Shown: positions 10,916 to 55,762 of the stretch, one piece after another
Layout: the number at the start of each line of letters is the position of its first letter
Numbering within the stretch: position 1 is the stretch's first letter
Source of the DNA: Cytobacillus oceanisediminis 2691
GTDB taxonomy: Bacteria > Bacillota > Bacilli > Bacillales > Cytobacillaceae
Direction: 5' to 3'
DNA: 55,762 nucleotides
NCBI RefSeq assembly: GCF_007678455.1
Contig: NZ_VEEP01000005.1
Span: 272,727-328,488 of the forward strand
Made by a program: the position numbers and the translations under genes
Notes under the pieces: model-generated
Databases searched by the model: none
Seen by the model: the letters and a program-made list of their open reading frames with translations, nothing else
What the model was told of the DNA's origin: nothing

Positions 10916-12208
10916 ATGCGCTCATATAATAAATCGATTGAAGCTTTCAAAGAAGCAAAGGAACTTTTGCCAGGCGGGGTGAACAGCCCGGTCCGCGCGT
11001 TTAAATCTGTCGATATGGATCCAATTTTCATGGAAAAAGGCAAGGGTTCAAAAATCTATGATATTGACGGCAATGAATATATTGACTATGTATTATCATG
11101 GGGACCACTGATCCTTGGCCACACAAATGATAGGGTCGTGGAAGGAATCAAGAAGGTAGCTGAGCTTGGTACAAGCTTCGGTGCACCAACTGTTGTCGAG
11201 AATGAGCTTGCACAGCTTGTCATTGACCGTGTGCCATCGATCGAAATGGTCCGGATGGTATCATCGGGAACTGAGGCAACGATGAGTGCATTGCGCCTTG
11301 CGCGTGGATATACAGGCCGTAACAAAATCCTGAAATTTGAAGGATGCTACCACGGCCATGGCGACTCGCTGCTCATCAAAGCTGGCTCAGGGGTTGCTAC
11401 ACTTGGTTTGCCTGACAGCCCAGGTGTTCCTGAGGGTGTTGCTAAAAACACGATTACAGTGCCTTATAACGATCTTGAGAGCGTTCGTTACGCATTCGAA
11501 CAGTACGGAGATGACATCGCCGGCGTCATCGTAGAACCAGTAGCGGGAAATATGGGTGTCGTGCCGCCAGTGGGAGGCTTCCTTGAAGGCTTGCGCGAAA
11601 TCACTAGCCAGTACGGAACAGTATTGATCTTTGATGAGGTCATGACAGGCTTCCGTGTAGGCTATAACTGTGCTCAGGGATACTTCAATGTAACGCCTGA
11701 CCTGACCTGCCTTGGAAAGGTAATCGGCGGAGGGCTTCCAGTAGGAGCTTACGGCGGAAAGCGGGAAATCATGGAGCAAATCGCCCCGAGCGGACCGATT
11801 TACCAGGCGGGTACACTATCTGGTAACCCGCTGGCCATGACAGCCGGACTCGAGACTTTAAAGCAGTTGACTCCAGAATCTTACAAGGAATTTGAGCGCA
11901 AAGCCGATATTCTTGAAACAGGACTAAAAGCAGCGGCAGAAAAATACGGAATTCCGCATACCATAAATCGCGCAGGCTCGATGATCGGCATTTTCTTCAC
12001 CAACGAAAATGTCATCAACTACGAAATTGCCAGGACATCGAATCTGGAATTCTTCGCGGCCTACTACCGTGAAATGGCAAACGAAGGAGTATTCCTGCCG
12101 CCATCACAATTTGAAGGCCTGTTCCTGTCAACAGCACACACAGACGAAGACCTGCAAAAAACAATCGAAGCAGCCGAAAAAGCATTTGCCAAGCTGCAGA
12201 ATAAATAA
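10916..12208 (+). CDS. hemL: Glutamate-1-semialdehyde 2,1-aminomutase
   Basis: HemL converts glutamate-1-semialdehyde to 5-aminolevulinate with pyridoxal phosphate, the step after HemA. The 430 residues from the ATG at 10916 ([11 protein letters not shown]) match B. subtilis HemL in length and sequence. The PLP lysine is Lys268 in [17 protein letters not shown], and the [11 protein letters not shown] phosphate-binding loop is near 115-125. A longer in-frame TTG start at 10847 adds 23 residues unlike the family. GAGGG lies 5 nt before the chosen ATG. It ends the hem operon and is followed by a terminator. Confidence 0.97.
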
Positions 12209-12270: not shown

Positions 12271-12381
12271 AGGAATATATTTTATTTTTAAGGAATATAA
12301 TCGGTTTCTAAGGAATATATTTATTTTTTAAGGAATAAATTATCGGTTTTAAGGAATATATCATTACTTTTTAGGAATATA
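12271..12381. repeat. Six phased AGGAATATA direct repeats, 20-21-bp period
   Basis: AGGAATA(T/A)A occurs at 12271, 12291, 12311, 12331, 12352 and 12373, spaced 20, 20, 20, 21 and 21 bp. The rest of each unit is T-rich, partly alternating TTTATTTTT and ATCGGTTT. The array lies between the hemL terminator and the spoVID promoter. No ORF with a ribosome binding site is present. The spacing is about two helical turns, so the AT tracts face the same side of the DNA. Confidence 0.85.
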
Positions 12382-15289: not shown

Positions 15290-15575
15290 ATACAAAAACC
15301 AAAAATAAAGCAAAGCATTGACAGGGAAGAGTACATGAGCAGCCAGCTTGAAGAGAGGAAGTCCAATTGCTGGGAGGACTTCTAAGCGGGAACCATGGAA
15401 GGTCGCCCTTGAGCATCGCCTGGGAACGGGATACTCTCAGTAACAGGCGACGGTGAAGAGCCGTTATCCATATTTGAGCCAGCAGCTGATCTCTGTTTTT
15501 TACCGTTGCTGGGAAAAAAGGTGGTACCGCGAACATACTCCATTCGTCCTTTTATGGCGAATGGAGTTTTTTATT
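15290..15575 (+). ncRNA. T-box riboswitch controlling valS (Val specifier)
   Basis: The leader contains the hallmark T-box sequence AAGGTGGTACCGCG at 15518-15531. Its UGGU (15522-15525) would pair with the NCCA end of uncharged tRNA having discriminator A. A long stem I lies upstream, and a GTC triplet at 15402-15404, in the context GAAGGTCGCC, sits where the specifier is expected and codes valine. The terminator stem ACTCCATTCG (15537-15546) with CGAATGGAGT (15558-15567), followed by T residues, competes with the antiterminator. Low Val-tRNA charging would favour read-through into valS. Confidence 0.95.
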
Positions 15576-39175: not shown

Positions 39176-39979
39176 GTGGGAGAAGCGATTGTAATTACAT
39201 CCGGAAAAGGCGGGGTCGGCAAAACGACAACCTCTGCCAATATAGGTACAGCTTTGGCCCTTCAAGGCAAAAGAGTCTGTCTGATTGACACAGATATTGG
39301 GTTGCGCAACCTGGACGTTGTCATGGGACTTGAAAACCGCATCATTTATGATCTTGTCGATGTCATTGAGGGCAGATGTAAAATCCATCAGGCACTTGTA
39401 AAAGACAAGCGCTTCGATGATCACCTTTATTTGCTTCCAGCTGCACAGACAAGTGACAAAACAGCGGTCCAGCCTGAGCAAATGAGGAAATTGGTCAATG
39501 AACTTAAGCAAGATTATGATTATATCGTCATCGACTGCCCGGCTGGAATCGAGCAAGGCTATAAGAATGCTGTTGCCGGTGCAGACAAGGCAATCGTTGT
39601 CACTACACCTGAAGTTTCGGCTGTAAGGGACGCTGACAGGATCATCGGCCTGCTAGAAAAAGAAGAGAATGTTGAATCGCCGAAACTGGTCATCAACAGG
39701 ATCCGCAGCCATATGATGAAAAATGGCGACATGCTTGATGTCGATGAAATCACCACACATTTATCCATCGATCTCATAGGGATCGTAGCGGATGATGATG
39801 AAGTCATCAAAGCATCCAATCACGGCGAACCAATCGCACTGAATCCAAACAGCAAAGCTTCCATCGCTTACAGGAACATTGCCCGAAGGATCCTCGGCGA
39901 ATCCGTACCATTGCAACAGCTTGATACTGAAAGCAAAGGCGTATTTTCGAAGATCAAGAAATTCTTTGGTGTACGCTAA
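39176..39979 (+). CDS. minD: MinD septum-site ATPase
   Basis: MinD is a membrane-binding ParA-like ATPase that positions MinC. The deviant Walker A SGKGGVGKTT has Lys11 and Lys16; DTDIGLRNLDVVMG and DYDYIVIDCPAGIEQG follow. The C-terminal amphipathic helix VFSKIKKFFGVR is the membrane-targeting sequence. The 267 residues match B. subtilis MinD. The start is GTG at 39176 after AAGGAGG. A terminator follows. Confidence 0.98.
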   Translation: MGEAIVITSGKGGVGKTTTSANIGTALALQGKRVCLIDTDIGLRNLDVVMGLENRIIYDLVDVIEGRCKIHQALVKDKRFDDHLYLLPAAQTSDKTAVQPEQMRKLVNELKQDYDYIVIDCPAGIEQGYKNAVAGADKAIVVTTPEVSAVRDADRIIGLLEKEENVESPKLVINRIRSHMMKNGDMLDVDEITTHLSIDLIGIVADDDEVIKASNHGEPIALNPNSKASIAYRNIARRILGESVPLQQLDTESKGVFSKIKKFFGVR

Positions 39980-39983
39980 ATAT

Positions 39984-40030
39984 AAAGCACCTGCTTCCTC
40001 CCGGCTATCACGGGACAGTAGGTGCTTTTT
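39984..40030 (+). terminator. Terminator after minD
   Basis: AAAGCACCT (39984-39992) pairs with AGGTGCTTT (40020-40028), with an inner TCCCG/CGGGA stem, followed by T residues. Confidence 0.85.
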
Positions 40031-40060
40031 ACTTTTGTGGGGAGTAGTCCTCAGCTAGAA

Positions 40061-40424
40061 CCAGTTCTCCCCCCGAAAAAGGACAAGTGGCCGGAATACG
40101 GTCGCAGCACAACCAATTCTCCGCCCGAAAAAAGACAAGTGGTGGAAATATGGTAGAAGCACAACCAATTCTCCGCCCGAAAAAAGACAAGTGGTGGAAA
40201 TATGGTAGCAGCACAACCAGTTCTCCGCCTGAAAAAAGGAAAGTGGGAGGAATACGGTCGCAGCTCAACGAGTTCTCCGCCCGAAAAAAGGAAAGTGGGA
40301 GGAATACGGTCGCAGCTCAACGAGTTCTCCGCCCGAAAAAAGGCAAGTGGCCGGAATACGGTCGCAGCACAACCAGTACTCCGCCCAAAAGAGAGCAAGT
40401 GGCTGGATTACGGTAGCAACCATA
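40061..40424. repeat. Seven 52-bp tandem repeats between minD and spoIVFA
   Basis: Units begin at 40061, 40113, 40165, 40217, 40269, 40321 and 40373, each exactly 52 bp with no spacers. The conserved core is TTCTCCGCCCGAAAAAA; a short part after AAGTGG varies, then GGAATACGGTCGCAGC (or GGAAATATGGTA) closes the unit. Open frames cross the array on both strands, but 52 is not a multiple of three, so each frame cycles through three peptide versions, which argues against coding. Nothing else is seen between the minD terminator and the spoIVFA promoter. Confidence 0.95.
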
Positions 40425-40548
40425 ATGGTTTCTATTGTGAAAAGTGTCAGAGTCAACCCACTTTTCTTACCCAAAGGGTCTCCAGCAGAAAAACTGTGAA
40501 TTGATATTGGTTATTGAATTTTCTAAGCCTTCCACTCCCCCAAAAATG

Positions 40549-40616: not shown

Positions 40617-41393
40617 ATGAACTCGAGAGCTGACGATATACGAAGAAGGATGATGAAGCGGAAACGGGAGCGGGAGAGGATGGAGAAAACGAACCATAAC
40701 CGTTTTTTCTCTACGGAGGAAGAACGGCATGGTTTTGACAGGCTCCCATCCTATGATATGGGGCCAGGGGAAGGGGGCCATCCGTTATTCAAGAAGGAAG
40801 TGTTTTTGTTCAAGGTGCTTGCATCTGCTTGCCTTGTTTTGATTGTGGCGATTATTTACCGGAGCCCTTCTGAAAAAGCTGTGTCGGTCCAGCAATACGT
40901 GAATCATACGATGGAGCAGGAGTTCCAGTTTGCTGCTGTTTCAGATTGGTATGAGGATCAATTTGGCAAGCCATTGGCACTTCTTCCGGCAAAAAATACT
41001 GACGAAGGTAGCGAGAATGAGGTTGCATCTGGCAGCCAATATGCGCTTCCTGCCTCTGGGAAGATTCTTGAGGATTTTGGCGACAATGGACAGAGGATCA
41101 TGATTGAAATTGGCAAGGGTGCGGGTGTTGAGGCGATGAATGAAGGCCTTGTCCATTTTGTCGGCATGAAAGAGGGATTTGGTAAAACGGTGATTGTCCA
41201 ACATGGGGACAAGAGTGAAACCTGGTATGGGAACCTGGACAAAATTGATGTGAATCTTTATGAGTACATTTCCAAAGGTGCGAAGGTGGGAACAGCGATG
41301 GACAGCGAAGACGGTCTTAAAGGTTCATTTTATTTCGCTATTAAAAAAGGGGATGATTTCGTCGATCCCGTCCAGGTGATCAAGTTTGAATAA
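40617..41393 (+). CDS. spoIVFA: SpoIVFA, regulator of pro-SigmaK processing
   Basis: SpoIVFA sits in the mother-cell membrane around the forespore and holds SpoIVFB inactive with BofA until the SpoIVB signal. The 258 residues have a basic cytoplasmic head (RRRMMKRKRERERM), one membrane helix (about 64-82), and an outer M23/LytM-like fold (IMIEIGKGAGVEAMNEGLVHFVG ... ). The metal ligands of active M23 peptidases are not evident, consistent with a non-enzymatic role. Its 3' end overlaps spoIVFB. Confidence 0.94.
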   Translation: MNSRADDIRRRMMKRKRERERMEKTNHNRFFSTEEERHGFDRLPSYDMGPGEGGHPLFKKEVFLFKVLASACLVLIVAIIYRSPSEKAVSVQQYVNHTMEQEFQFAAVSDWYEDQFGKPLALLPAKNTDEGSENEVASGSQYALPASGKILEDFGDNGQRIMIEIGKGAGVEAMNEGLVHFVGMKEGFGKTVIVQHGDKSETWYGNLDKIDVNLYEYISKGAKVGTAMDSEDGLKGSFYFAIKKGDDFVDPVQVIKFE

Positions 41394-43844: not shown

Positions 43845-43954
43845 TTATTGTTTGTAGCACCCGTGCTACAACCGCTCACAACAGGTAATTAAGCTTTGCA
43901 ATCTGCAAACGCCTGCTGATGGCGAGTCTGAGTCTAATGAGGAGGTGCACTGGA
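43845..43954 (+). ncRNA. L21 leader RNA
   Basis: The 5' untranslated region holds a perfect stem TTGTAGCAC (43852-43860) with GTGCTACAA (43863-43871), then a second structured part with AGCTTTGCAATCTGCAAACG and GAGGAGGTG just before rplU. This layout is the L21 leader known in Bacillaceae, thought to mediate autogenous control by L21 or L27. The longer in-frame start at 43919 falls in this leader and is not used. Confidence 0.8.
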
Positions 43955-50155: not shown

Positions 50156-50216
50156 AGGTTCGCTCCTCCGATTTGTTTTAATGATCATTCCCAGGGTCTG
50201 TTTCCAGGAAAGTGAA

Positions 50217-50582
50217 ACATGTGCCCCCAAAAAAAAATCCCCGGCATTTCGGTCACAAAAAGCCGGAACATGTGCCCGAAAAGGAAAAATCCCCGGCATT
50301 TCGGTAACAAGAAGCCGGAACATGTGCCCGAAAAAGAGAAATCCCCGGCATTATGGTCACAAGAAGCTGGAACATGTGCCCGAAAAAGAAAAATACCAGG
50401 CATTTCGGTCACAAGAAGCCGGAACATGTGCCCGAAAAAGAGAAATCCCCGGCATTATGGTCACAAGAAGCTGGAACATGTGCCCGAAAAAGAAAAATCC
50501 TCGGCATTACGGTCACAAGAAGCTGGAACATGTGCCCGAAAAAGCGGTATCCTCAGCTATACGGTCACAAGCTGATAACACG
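50217..50582. repeat. Seven 52-bp tandem repeats between nifS and nadB
   Basis: Units start at 50217 (51 bp), 50268, 50320, 50372, 50424, 50476 and 50528, all 52 bp after the first. Each reads ACATGTGCCCGAAAAAG, then AAATCCCCGGCATT, then GGTCACAAGAAGC and GGA. Long open frames cross the array on both strands with a 52-residue cycle, as expected from a 52-bp period read in three frames, so it is not a gene. It aligns without gaps with the array at 40.06 kb at GCCCGAAAAA and GGTC-CA. It fills most of the 550-bp nifS-nadB gap. Confidence 0.95.
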
Positions 50583-54383: not shown

Positions 54384-55762
54384 GTGAAAATCCATATCGT
54401 ACAGAAAGGGGATACTCTTTGGAAGATCGCCAAAAAGTACGGCGTGAACTTTGAAGAGCTGAAACAGATGAACGCCCAGCTCAGCAACCCTGATATGATT
54501 ATGCCCGGTATGAAAATAAAAGTTCCAACTGGTGGAGGCACAATAAAGAAAGAAGCTCCCATCGCAGGTGGAACGCCTCAAGCAAAAATCAATATGGGTG
54601 GCAAAAAGGAAATGCCGATTGCCAAAGAGAAACCAATGCCAATTCCAGAAGTAAAGAAAGAAGCACCAAAAGAGGCTCCTGTTAAGGAACAGCCGAAGGT
54701 GGAAATGCCTAAACCTGCTCCAAAGGAAGAGCCAGTTAAACCATATAAACCTAAAATGCCTGTACAAATCAAGCCGGAAATTGATATTAACAATTACTAT
54801 ATGATGAATATGGCTAATATGCAGCTCCCGCCACAGCCAAAACCACAGCCAAAACCACAGCCAAAGCCACTGCCAAAAGCCCAGCCAAAAGCGGAGCCGC
54901 AGCTCCCGCCAAAACCAACTAACATTTTCCCGGAAGTTAAACCAGAGGCTAAGCAAATCAAACCACAGGTAAAATCGGAACTTAAGCCCCTGCCTCCAAA
55001 AGCAGAGGTAAAGCCAAATGTAAAATCAGAAATTAAACCAGATATAAAAATTGAAAAGAATGCTTACATGGATGAATCACCATCAATGATGCCATTCGTT
55101 CAAGGAGGTTACCAGCAGCCTATGATCCCATACCCATATAATTGTTATCCAGGTGCACCTTCAATGTCAGGTCCTGCTTATGGTTATCCAGGAACCCAAC
55201 AAATGCCATACCCTCAGGTGCAGGGAATTTCCCAGTATCCAGATATGATGCCTAACATGGCATTGCCGGCAGAGGACATGGAATCCTCATCTTTCGCAAA
55301 TATGCAGAGCCCGGTAATGGGTGAAAACATGCCACATTATGCTCCACCGCAGATGACTGGACCGACTTTTTATGGGGTGCCTATTTCACCTGTTATGCCT
55401 GGCCCAGGCTACATCCCTCAGCCGCAACAAATGCCATATATGCCGCAGGTCGGCGGAATGATGGATAATCAGCCAATGCCACAAGTAGGCGGCATGATGG
55501 AGGATGAATCATCTGAAATGCCAATGATGCCTCAGATGCCGCAAGTCGGCGGGATGATGCAGGGTCAGATGCCGATGATGCCGCAGGTCGGTGGAATGAT
55601 GGAAAACCAAATGCCGCAGGTCGGCGGGATGATGCAGGGTCAGATGCCGATGATGCCGCAGGTCGGTGGAATGATGGAAAACCAAATGCCGCAAGTCGGC
55701 GGGATGATGCAGGGTCAGATGCCGATGATGCCGCAGGTCGGTGGAATGATGGAAAACCAAAT
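54384..55762 (+). CDS. safA: SafA, spore morphogenetic LysM protein (5' part)
   Basis: SafA is a coat morphogenetic protein that works with SpoVID to build the inner coat. The N-terminal LysM domain (MKIHIVQKGDTLWKIAKKYG, about 1-48) binds peptidoglycan. A Lys/Pro/Glu-rich linker follows, including the PKPQPKPQPKPLPK stretch, then a Met/Gln/Pro/Gly-rich region. From 55536 the protein enters identical 25-residue repeats. The start is GTG at 54384, 7 nt after GGAGGG. No stop occurs before the window end, so the C-terminus is missing. In B. subtilis safA also follows nadA. Confidence 0.93.
   Translation, partial: MKIHIVQKGDTLWKIAKKYGVNFEELKQMNAQLSNPDMIMPGMKIKVPTGGGTIKKEAPIAGGTPQAKINMGGKKEMPIAKEKPMPIPEVKKEAPKEAPVKEQPKVEMPKPAPKEEPVKPYKPKMPVQIKPEIDINNYYMMNMANMQLPPQPKPQPKPQPKPLPKAQPKAEPQLPPKPTNIFPEVKPEAKQIKPQVKSELKPLPPKAEVKPNVKSEIKPDIKIEKNAYMDESPSMMPFVQGGYQQPMIPYPYNCYPGAPSMSGPAYGYPGTQQMPYPQVQGISQYPDMMPNMALPAEDMESSSFANMQSPVMGENMPHYAPPQMTGPTFYGVPISPVMPGPGYIPQPQQMPYMPQVGGMMDNQPMPQVGGMMEDESSEMPMMPQMPQVGGMMQGQMPMMPQVGGMMENQMPQVGGMMQGQMPMMPQVGGMMENQMPQVGGMMQGQMPMMPQVGGMMENQ
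55536..55760 (+). repeat. 75-bp tandem repeat inside safA
   Basis: Three complete 75-bp units at 55536, 55611 and 55686, with a fourth beginning at 55761, encode MPQVGGMMQGQMPMMPQVGG-type 25-residue repeats. The units differ only at one synonymous base (GCA/GCG context), so they are very recent copies. 75 is a multiple of three, so the frame is kept. The array is cut by the window end. Confidence 0.95.

Follow-up and report, generated by a model that had tools for sequence, protein, structure and literature searches.

A 52-bp tandem repeat of Cytobacillus oceanisediminis is an imperfect palindrome whose placed arrays point with the replication fork

The array of seven 52-bp units that lies behind minD in a 55,762-nucleotide stretch of the genome of Cytobacillus oceanisediminis 2691 (hereafter the window) falls within the 52-nt tandem-repeat class already known from Bacillaceae. 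New with respect to that class are the imperfect palindrome formed by each unit and the direction of the placed arrays of this family, which is that of the replication fork. Such repeats of Bacillus and Firmicutes were described by Subirana and Messeguer, their function being left unexplained (PMC8161180), and the view of an earlier note on this DNA that the array is not a described element does not therefore hold; the same note also missed both the inverted-repeat design and the replication orientation. The 52-nt repeats have been a standing puzzle, in that their length is constant while their sequence changes. Their orientation ties them to chromosome replication and makes their function testable and, together with the mismatched, co-varying palindromes, narrows the options to the biology of the fork, of single strands or of segregation, rather than to the regulation of neighbouring genes.

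Two arrays in the window and their relation to the 52-nt class

The array behind minD (array 1) is recovered by TRF with a period of 52, 6.9 copies, 88% matches and no indels over 40059-40418, and a second array (array 2), flanked by nadB and by a gene for a NifS/IscS-type cysteine desulfurase, with a period of 52 and 6.3 copies over 50216-50544. Cutting in register gives seven units in each, unit 1 of array 2 being longer by one base, which together with TRF bears out the seven contiguous units that had been reported behind minD. From synteny with the equivalent site in a single-contig genome of the same species (G006), the + strand of array 1 is the leading-sense strand. With regard to the flanking gene names given earlier, minD stands on its TIGR01968 match, while the gene at 40617, which we take to be spoIVFA from its position alone, has a name that no equivalog model confirms. 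By eye, a hairpin and T run comparable to those behind minD in the window follow the gene in G006 and in most of the other genus genomes compared.

Table 1. Features of array 1, its flanks and array 2, in window coordinates
Feature	Position	Strand	Remarks
Tandem array 1, seven 52-bp units	40059..40426	+	Register starts at 40063; last unit degenerate
Array 2, second member of the family, seven 52-bp units	50214..50577	+	
Box 1 of unit 1, TSYGCCCGAAAA type	40067..40078	+	Recurs at 52-bp steps
Box 2 of unit 1, TTACGGTCRCA type	40096..40108	+	Box 1 in inverted form, save for one conserved mismatch
Candidate hairpin over the unit border, pairing box 2 with box 1 of the following unit around a 9-nt loop	40096..40130	+	Weak in array 1
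minD	39176..39979	+	TIGR01968, 422 bits against a cut-off of 213
Terminator-like hairpin and T run 3' of minD	39985..40035	+	Array 1 starts behind it
Gene in spoIVFA position, M23-like C-terminal region	40617..41393	+	No equivalog above cut-off

The likeness to the published class is a close one, extending to the constant 52-nt unit of variable sequence, the several families per genome, the short sequences that often occur with their own reverse inside the repeat, and the partial conservation between strains (PMC8161180). Mesobacillus-type species are also in Table 1 of that work, where selenatarsenatis is listed, with boroniphilus and subterraneus named as sharing its repeats. With seven 52-bp units each, the window arrays fall within the limits of the class (51-53 nt, at least four copies), and they are non-coding, with a length that is not a multiple of three; overlap with flanking ORFs (at least 100 aa, those lying mostly inside an array having been removed before the count) is at most 60 bp in 83 of the 87 arrays from six single-contig genomes that are considered below. 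Several sequence families of the one length occur in G006, where a survey of 1.6 Mb (five stretches, one of them around the terminus; arrays of at least 2.8 copies) gave 76 arrays, 47 with a period of 52 or 53 and several unrelated consensuses, 10 with periods of 40-42 and eight with periods of 20-21. Another family of the class is seen in the 53-bp arrays with CATAAGGGTA/TACCCTTATG arms at G006:C1 1664563, 2583032, 3696129 and 3736594. Between strains, conservation is partial and copy number variable. The published 52-nt consensuses of other species also hold inverted repeats (median z 4.4, with p >0.05 in five of 17), the 17 being the 52-nt ones among the 27 of PMC8161180 Table 1, with one left out as the reverse complement of another.

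The differences lie in conservation and direction. PMC8161180 reports no sequence conservation, and no rule of orientation was found in it; in the present family a single scaffold spans genera, the arms show co-variation, and the arrays run with the fork. In its main text, the word 'orientation' occurs 0 times and 'replication' once, unrelated to chromosome arrangement (PMC7549362, 2020 J. Bacteriol., was outside the scope), and at the level of the listings of a literature search no report on the replication orientation of such repeats was recognised. The roles proposed in PMC8161180 are small RNAs or binding of a nucleoid protein.

Extent of the family

The earlier note had taken the alignment of the two window arrays as a sign of a shared scaffold. 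Alone, this alignment is no proof, as the best rotation of the two consensuses agrees at 26 of 52 positions, which is reached by 100 of 3000 dinucleotide shuffles. The scaffold itself is real, being found in the same register in 12 more arrays when the window's own genome (G000, 477 contigs) is searched with each window array; together with the two in the window this gives 14 scaffold-sharing arrays. The 47 units taken from these 14 arrays align without gaps over 52 columns, their order being box 1 (TGYGCCCGAAAA), 17 nt of purine-rich linker, box 2 (TTACGGTCRCA) and, last, another short linker.

A covariance model built from the 47 aligned units (R1, match limit E 0.01, up to 150 candidates scored per genome) has matches in 19 of 21 genus genomes, the window's own included, at one to at least 150 units each, the latter being the value for G020. 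G009, which is 66% complete, has a single borderline match, and at this limit no match was obtained in G011 or G018. Beyond the genus, an exact two-unit pattern run against a named genome collection gave 32 stretches, with carriers in Mesobacillus, Neobacillus, Heyndrickxia, Evansella, Siminovitchia, Bacillus marasmi and further Bacillus. Bacillaceae-type 52-nt arrays are also carried by records titled Chryseobacterium sp. ISL-80 (L078, L086, L094, L096 and L099), which likely stem from an assembly that is mislabelled or contaminated. Exact patterns probe the family poorly, because the scaffold pattern with one mismatch gave no match in G000, where R1 gave 99 units; a first pattern scan of genome contigs also gave no match. 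The array behind minD matches none of 50,697 phage and 72,556 plasmid records at E 1e-5, nor was the exact two-unit pattern found in viral contigs, from which a phage- or plasmid-borne repeat is rejected.

Orientation with respect to replication

In six single-contig genomes, all of the 87 arrays (87/87) have leading-strand sense. These arrays represent 46 distinct sites, and it is to the sites that weight is given, since they are partly common to several species. G006 starts at dnaA (TIGR00362), and its R1 matches are all on the + strand up to 2.448 Mb and all on the - strand from 3.459 Mb, with a dif-like site, located with a motif that we take to be that of dif, at 2,548,034, where the GC skew flips sign. 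The strand pattern is as in G006 in G005, G008 and G010. In G003 and G020, which do not start at dnaA, the first strand change brackets dif and the second brackets dnaA (4.46 and 4.41 Mb). A dif was located in five of the six genomes; the search in G010 found none, and there an assumed terminus anywhere in 2.289-2.632 Mb gives the identical count. Six weak matches below the matrix threshold (G003 534009 and 2343109; G005 1310719; G008 727447; G010 1024869 and 1728241) are likewise all oriented with the fork.

The orientation calls are independent of the purine-rich linkers: scored by the box columns alone, 479 of 483 units favour the leading strand and four fail to do so; columns 9/39 on their own favour the leading strand in 454 units and the opposite strand in 0, with 29 ties. 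Neither are gene direction and transcription the cause. Taking as genes the long ORFs of our own caller rather than the annotation, both neighbours run with the fork for 48 arrays, one of each for 24, and both against the fork for 15 (nine sites), and these 15 still follow the fork. That the arrays act on the flanking genes, as promoter, terminator or regulatory element, is disfavoured on account of this ORF-independent orientation and of the 17 of 20 genus genomes with no 52-bp array at minD.

In named genomes of other genera, local GC skew is used as a proxy and not as a placement on the chromosome. By this proxy, the array strand has positive skew in 24 of 26 arrays; in this set, seven of the 32 loci have no array above threshold (L079, L084, L090, L092, L095, L102 and L105). 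The two exceptions are L076, a locus of only 1.5 kb, and an Evansella array with a mixed strand call. A second 52-nt family (GACAGGT / AAAGYTGTC) within the 1.6 Mb of G006 points with the fork in 15 of 16 arrays, the motif having been picked after viewing the arrays. The 16 are those of the 21 listed arrays that carry GACAGGT/ACCTGTC; those at 1713120, 1738330, 2306560, 2345485 and 2523330, which carry GACARCTTT instead and look near-symmetric, were left out, their strand being undecidable.

The one array that runs the other way is that at G006:C1:525532 (L269), with 13.5 copies (GACAGGT/AAAGCTGTC family); local GC skew around it is normal and the ORFs there are co-directional. As the only clear exception seen, it truly contradicts an absolute rule, and it argues for a polarity that is a strong bias and not a necessity. 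Comparing the arrays of all 52-nt families pair by pair for rotation identity gives agreement with replication in 77 of 102 pairs (margin 0.10), which is not counted as proof; many of the disagreements are in near-symmetric families of uncallable strand, and eight involve the array at 525532.

Inverted-repeat design of the unit

Box 1 and box 2 are inverted copies around one dyad axis, and this axis ranks first in a mutual-information scan of all column pairs of the 87 array consensuses, made with no structure assumed. On the axis, pairs 4-44, 6-42, 7-41, 13-35 and 14-34 change together and mostly stay complementary, while off-axis pairs also rank high (3-44 second, 1-5 fifth and 5-42 sixth). 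In the 47-unit alignment, compensatory change is seen in 45 cells, where shuffles give 21.7 +/- 6.3, and the signal is lost in slid registers, but two of the five covariation measures are not above shuffles (pairs changed on both sides, 6 and 5.1 in shuffles; further pair types, 15 and 15.0). Arms of other sequence, with the pairing kept, occur in other genera, as in TACGTG/CACGTA of B. marasmi and TATGCG/CGCATA of N. rhizophilus. One dyad position is held mismatched, as C/T in 443 of 483 units, and position 8/40 is a non-pair in about half of the units.

As DNA, the hairpin over the unit border has a mean predicted energy of -5.2 kcal/mol and a mean z of -2.2 over the 46 sites, a modest degree of folding; the hairpin of the bottom strand is a little more stable, at -5.9 kcal/mol. 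At several sites z is close to 0 or higher, and the array at minD, as it stands in G006, gives a poor fold (z +0.5, -1.4 kcal/mol). For single units no structure is predicted by RNAalifold, and an Rfam search of the arrays gave no family match.

Rigid length and turnover of sequence and site

Unit length is close to invariant. In the 483 units that a position matrix finds in the 87 arrays, adjacent spacings are 52 bp in 377 of 385 cases, 51 in four and 53 in four, nine double spacings (103-104 bp, with a missed unit between) having been excluded. Between adjacent units there are 2385 substitutions and eight length changes, against 49 substitutions and seven indel events over 5971 positions of non-coding flanks in two strains of the species. 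The ratios differ with a Fisher p of about 1e-8, the units within an array not being independent; the flank comparison replaces a first non-coding yardstick that was too sparse (six substitutions, one indel). A length of 52 bp corresponds to about five helical turns.

Sequence, copy number and site all turn over. Arrays at different sites of one genome are more alike than arrays at different sites of different genomes, with a difference of 0.031 over the 72 arrays of at least two units, where the maximum of 300 label shuffles is 0.019; this supports the earlier proposal of one dispersed family that is homogenised locally. By contrast, the significance that had been attached to the equal copy number of the two window arrays is lost, the number of units per array ranging from one to 23 across the six single-contig genomes. 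The polymorphism between strains that had been suggested as a check is also found: the minD-spoIVFA site has seven units in G000 against three in G006, and array 1 occurs only in these two of 20 genus genomes (G010 left out); of the other 18, one has a different array and 17 have no 52-bp array. In 15 of the 17, the distance from minD to a conserved promoter-like motif is 79-176 bp. That different array, of 52-53 bp with GACCAT...ATGGTC arms and 3.5 copies, fills the gap in G014 (L141) and suggests a hot spot or a replacement. In G008 (L136) and G019 (L145) the gap holds about 200 bp of unrelated inserted sequence (GCAGACTCCTGCGGGATC...), which is probably a further dispersed repeat, and in G020 the gene in spoIVFA position (L152, G020:C1:904504-905281) is matched as two overlapping pieces, as if frame-shifted. 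The counterpart of array 2 in G006 has four to five units (3459185-3459444). Among the G006 loci compared, 14 of 15 distinct G000 arrays have a counterpart (L008 has no match), and at some sites the array persists across as many as six genomes, its unit sequence having changed.

Relation to other repeat systems

REP sequences are mismatched palindromes dispersed between genes, with a GTAG-type tetranucleotide at the foot of the hairpin. The 52-bp units share with the REP/RAYT system an imperfect palindrome with a conserved mismatch. GTAG does not rank with the commonest hairpin feet of the 87 arrays, ATTT/ATTA and AAAA/TGAA; on their leading-sense strand GTAG occurs 63 times and CTAC five times, a strong strand bias. 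KOPS, SRS and Ter are short fixed sequences that are read as duplex and oriented by replichore. Replichore orientation is thus a common property, but the arms of the 52-bp units vary, and the SRS octamer of SpoIIIE, a polar sequence which we take to be GAGAAGGG, is absent from the arrays, with 0 occurrences on both strands of 25,785 array bases where about 0.4 are expected. Identity with SRS is rejected for this reason. CRISPR arrays consist of identical repeats with unique spacers, and are rejected since here whole units are homogenised and there are no unique spacers. Sites like that of RacA, presumably GTGACCCGGGTCAC, come to mind as box 2 contains GGTCAC, and are set aside since the half-sites are separated and other subfamilies have no GGTCAC.

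With regard to mobile elements, IS608 and ISDra2 are described as targeting the lagging-strand template and recognising hairpins (PMC6006769). Unlike REP/RAYT and IS200/IS605, the 52-bp arrays are tandem and of fixed length. The BRE repeats of Betaproteobacteria, from the portion of PMC3110155 seen, resemble the 52-bp arrays in being mostly intergenic with a tandem copy number that varies between strains, and differ in being about 90 bp long and in that this portion mentions no replication orientation.

Possible mechanisms

What is observed is a strict unit length, mismatched and co-varying inverted repeats, an intergenic place, turnover of copy number and site, and a single orientation to the fork. 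The explanation that we favour, tentatively, is one of strand-specific hairpin arrays on the lagging-strand template, in the manner of REP sequences or IS200/IS605 ends. The recognised feature would be the shape of one strand and not a fixed double-strand sequence, and shape recognition looks the likelier of the two because unrelated arms coexist in one genome and stay complementary. The leading-sense strand is the lagging-strand template, single-stranded at the fork, where the units could fold as mismatched hairpins with purine-rich linkers between them. The conserved mismatch (C.T here, A.G on the other strand) would make the hairpins of the two strands unequal, and a putative strand-specific hairpin reader, be it an HUH/REP-type enzyme or a host fork factor, would act on one orientation only, coupling the birth, spread or upkeep of arrays to fork direction; local unequal exchange may then homogenise and resize the arrays. 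Array periods lie near whole helical turns (20-21, 40-42 and 52), and this phasing counts against the hairpin model, because whole-turn periods suit double-stranded DNA better. Also against it are the weakness of the hairpins, that of array 1 in G006 included, the two covariation measures at the level of shuffles, the high-ranking off-axis pairs, the frequent non-pair at 8/40, the lack of GTAG at the hairpin base and the reversed array at 525532. It is somewhat doubtful that the idea extends to the whole 52-nt class as a replication-polarity element of Bacillaceae, made of shape-defined hairpins of the lagging template with free arms, fixed length and a direction-setting mismatch; if true, this would add to the oriented elements of chromosomes a class different from KOPS, Chi and Ter.

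The same phasing, at periods near two, four and five turns, speaks for a polar array read as duplex, in which each unit would bind a dimeric nucleoid or segregation protein, 52 bp would keep the sites on one face of the helix, and the polarity would serve chromosome organisation or directional translocation as with KOPS, SRS and Ter. The near-constant spacing (377/385), the contrast of 2385:8 in arrays with 49:7 in flanks, the presence of arrays on both replichores and the inclusion of a nucleoid protein among the proposals of PMC8161180 are all in its favour. We nevertheless regard it as unlikely, since one sequence-specific protein could hardly read the several unrelated arms of one genome, and complementary co-variation of arms is unexpected for independent half-sites; the lack of SRS in all 87 arrays says only that they are not built of SRS. 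Improbable, too, is a neutral satellite with no host function, generated by slippage at quasi-palindromes, with only one orientation of the arrays arising often or surviving replication through orientation-dependent instability. Site and copy-number turnover would be natural to it, the less stable hairpin strand is indeed the lagging template, and the reversed array of 13.5 copies shows that the other orientation is viable. Against this, 87/87 is extreme for a difference of about 0.7 kcal/mol, and the 52-bp length is rigid, with some sites kept in up to six genomes. Moreover, templated quasi-palindrome repair erases mismatches, such that the conserved C/T mismatch should vanish. A transcribed small RNA or RNA sponge, as Subirana and Messeguer proposed for B. 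coagulans, draws on RNA-seq reads over 52-nt repeats reported in PMC8161180 and PMC8625621, and is very improbable here, given an orientation independent of neighbouring ORFs, a single-unit consensus with no predicted RNA fold and arrays with no Rfam match.

Other repeats and leaders in the window

An A/T-rich repeat of 20 and 40 bp (AGGAATATATTTTATTTTTA) lies at 12271-12381, after an ORF ending at 12208, with a period in keeping with the 20-21-nt class. The tandem repeats at 54830-54917 and 55532-55762 (12, 36, 42 and 75 bp), the second stretch truncated by the window end, are probably coding, their periods being multiples of three. Rfam matches in the window are a T-box leader (15309-15554) and a ribosomal protein L21 leader (43860-43939).
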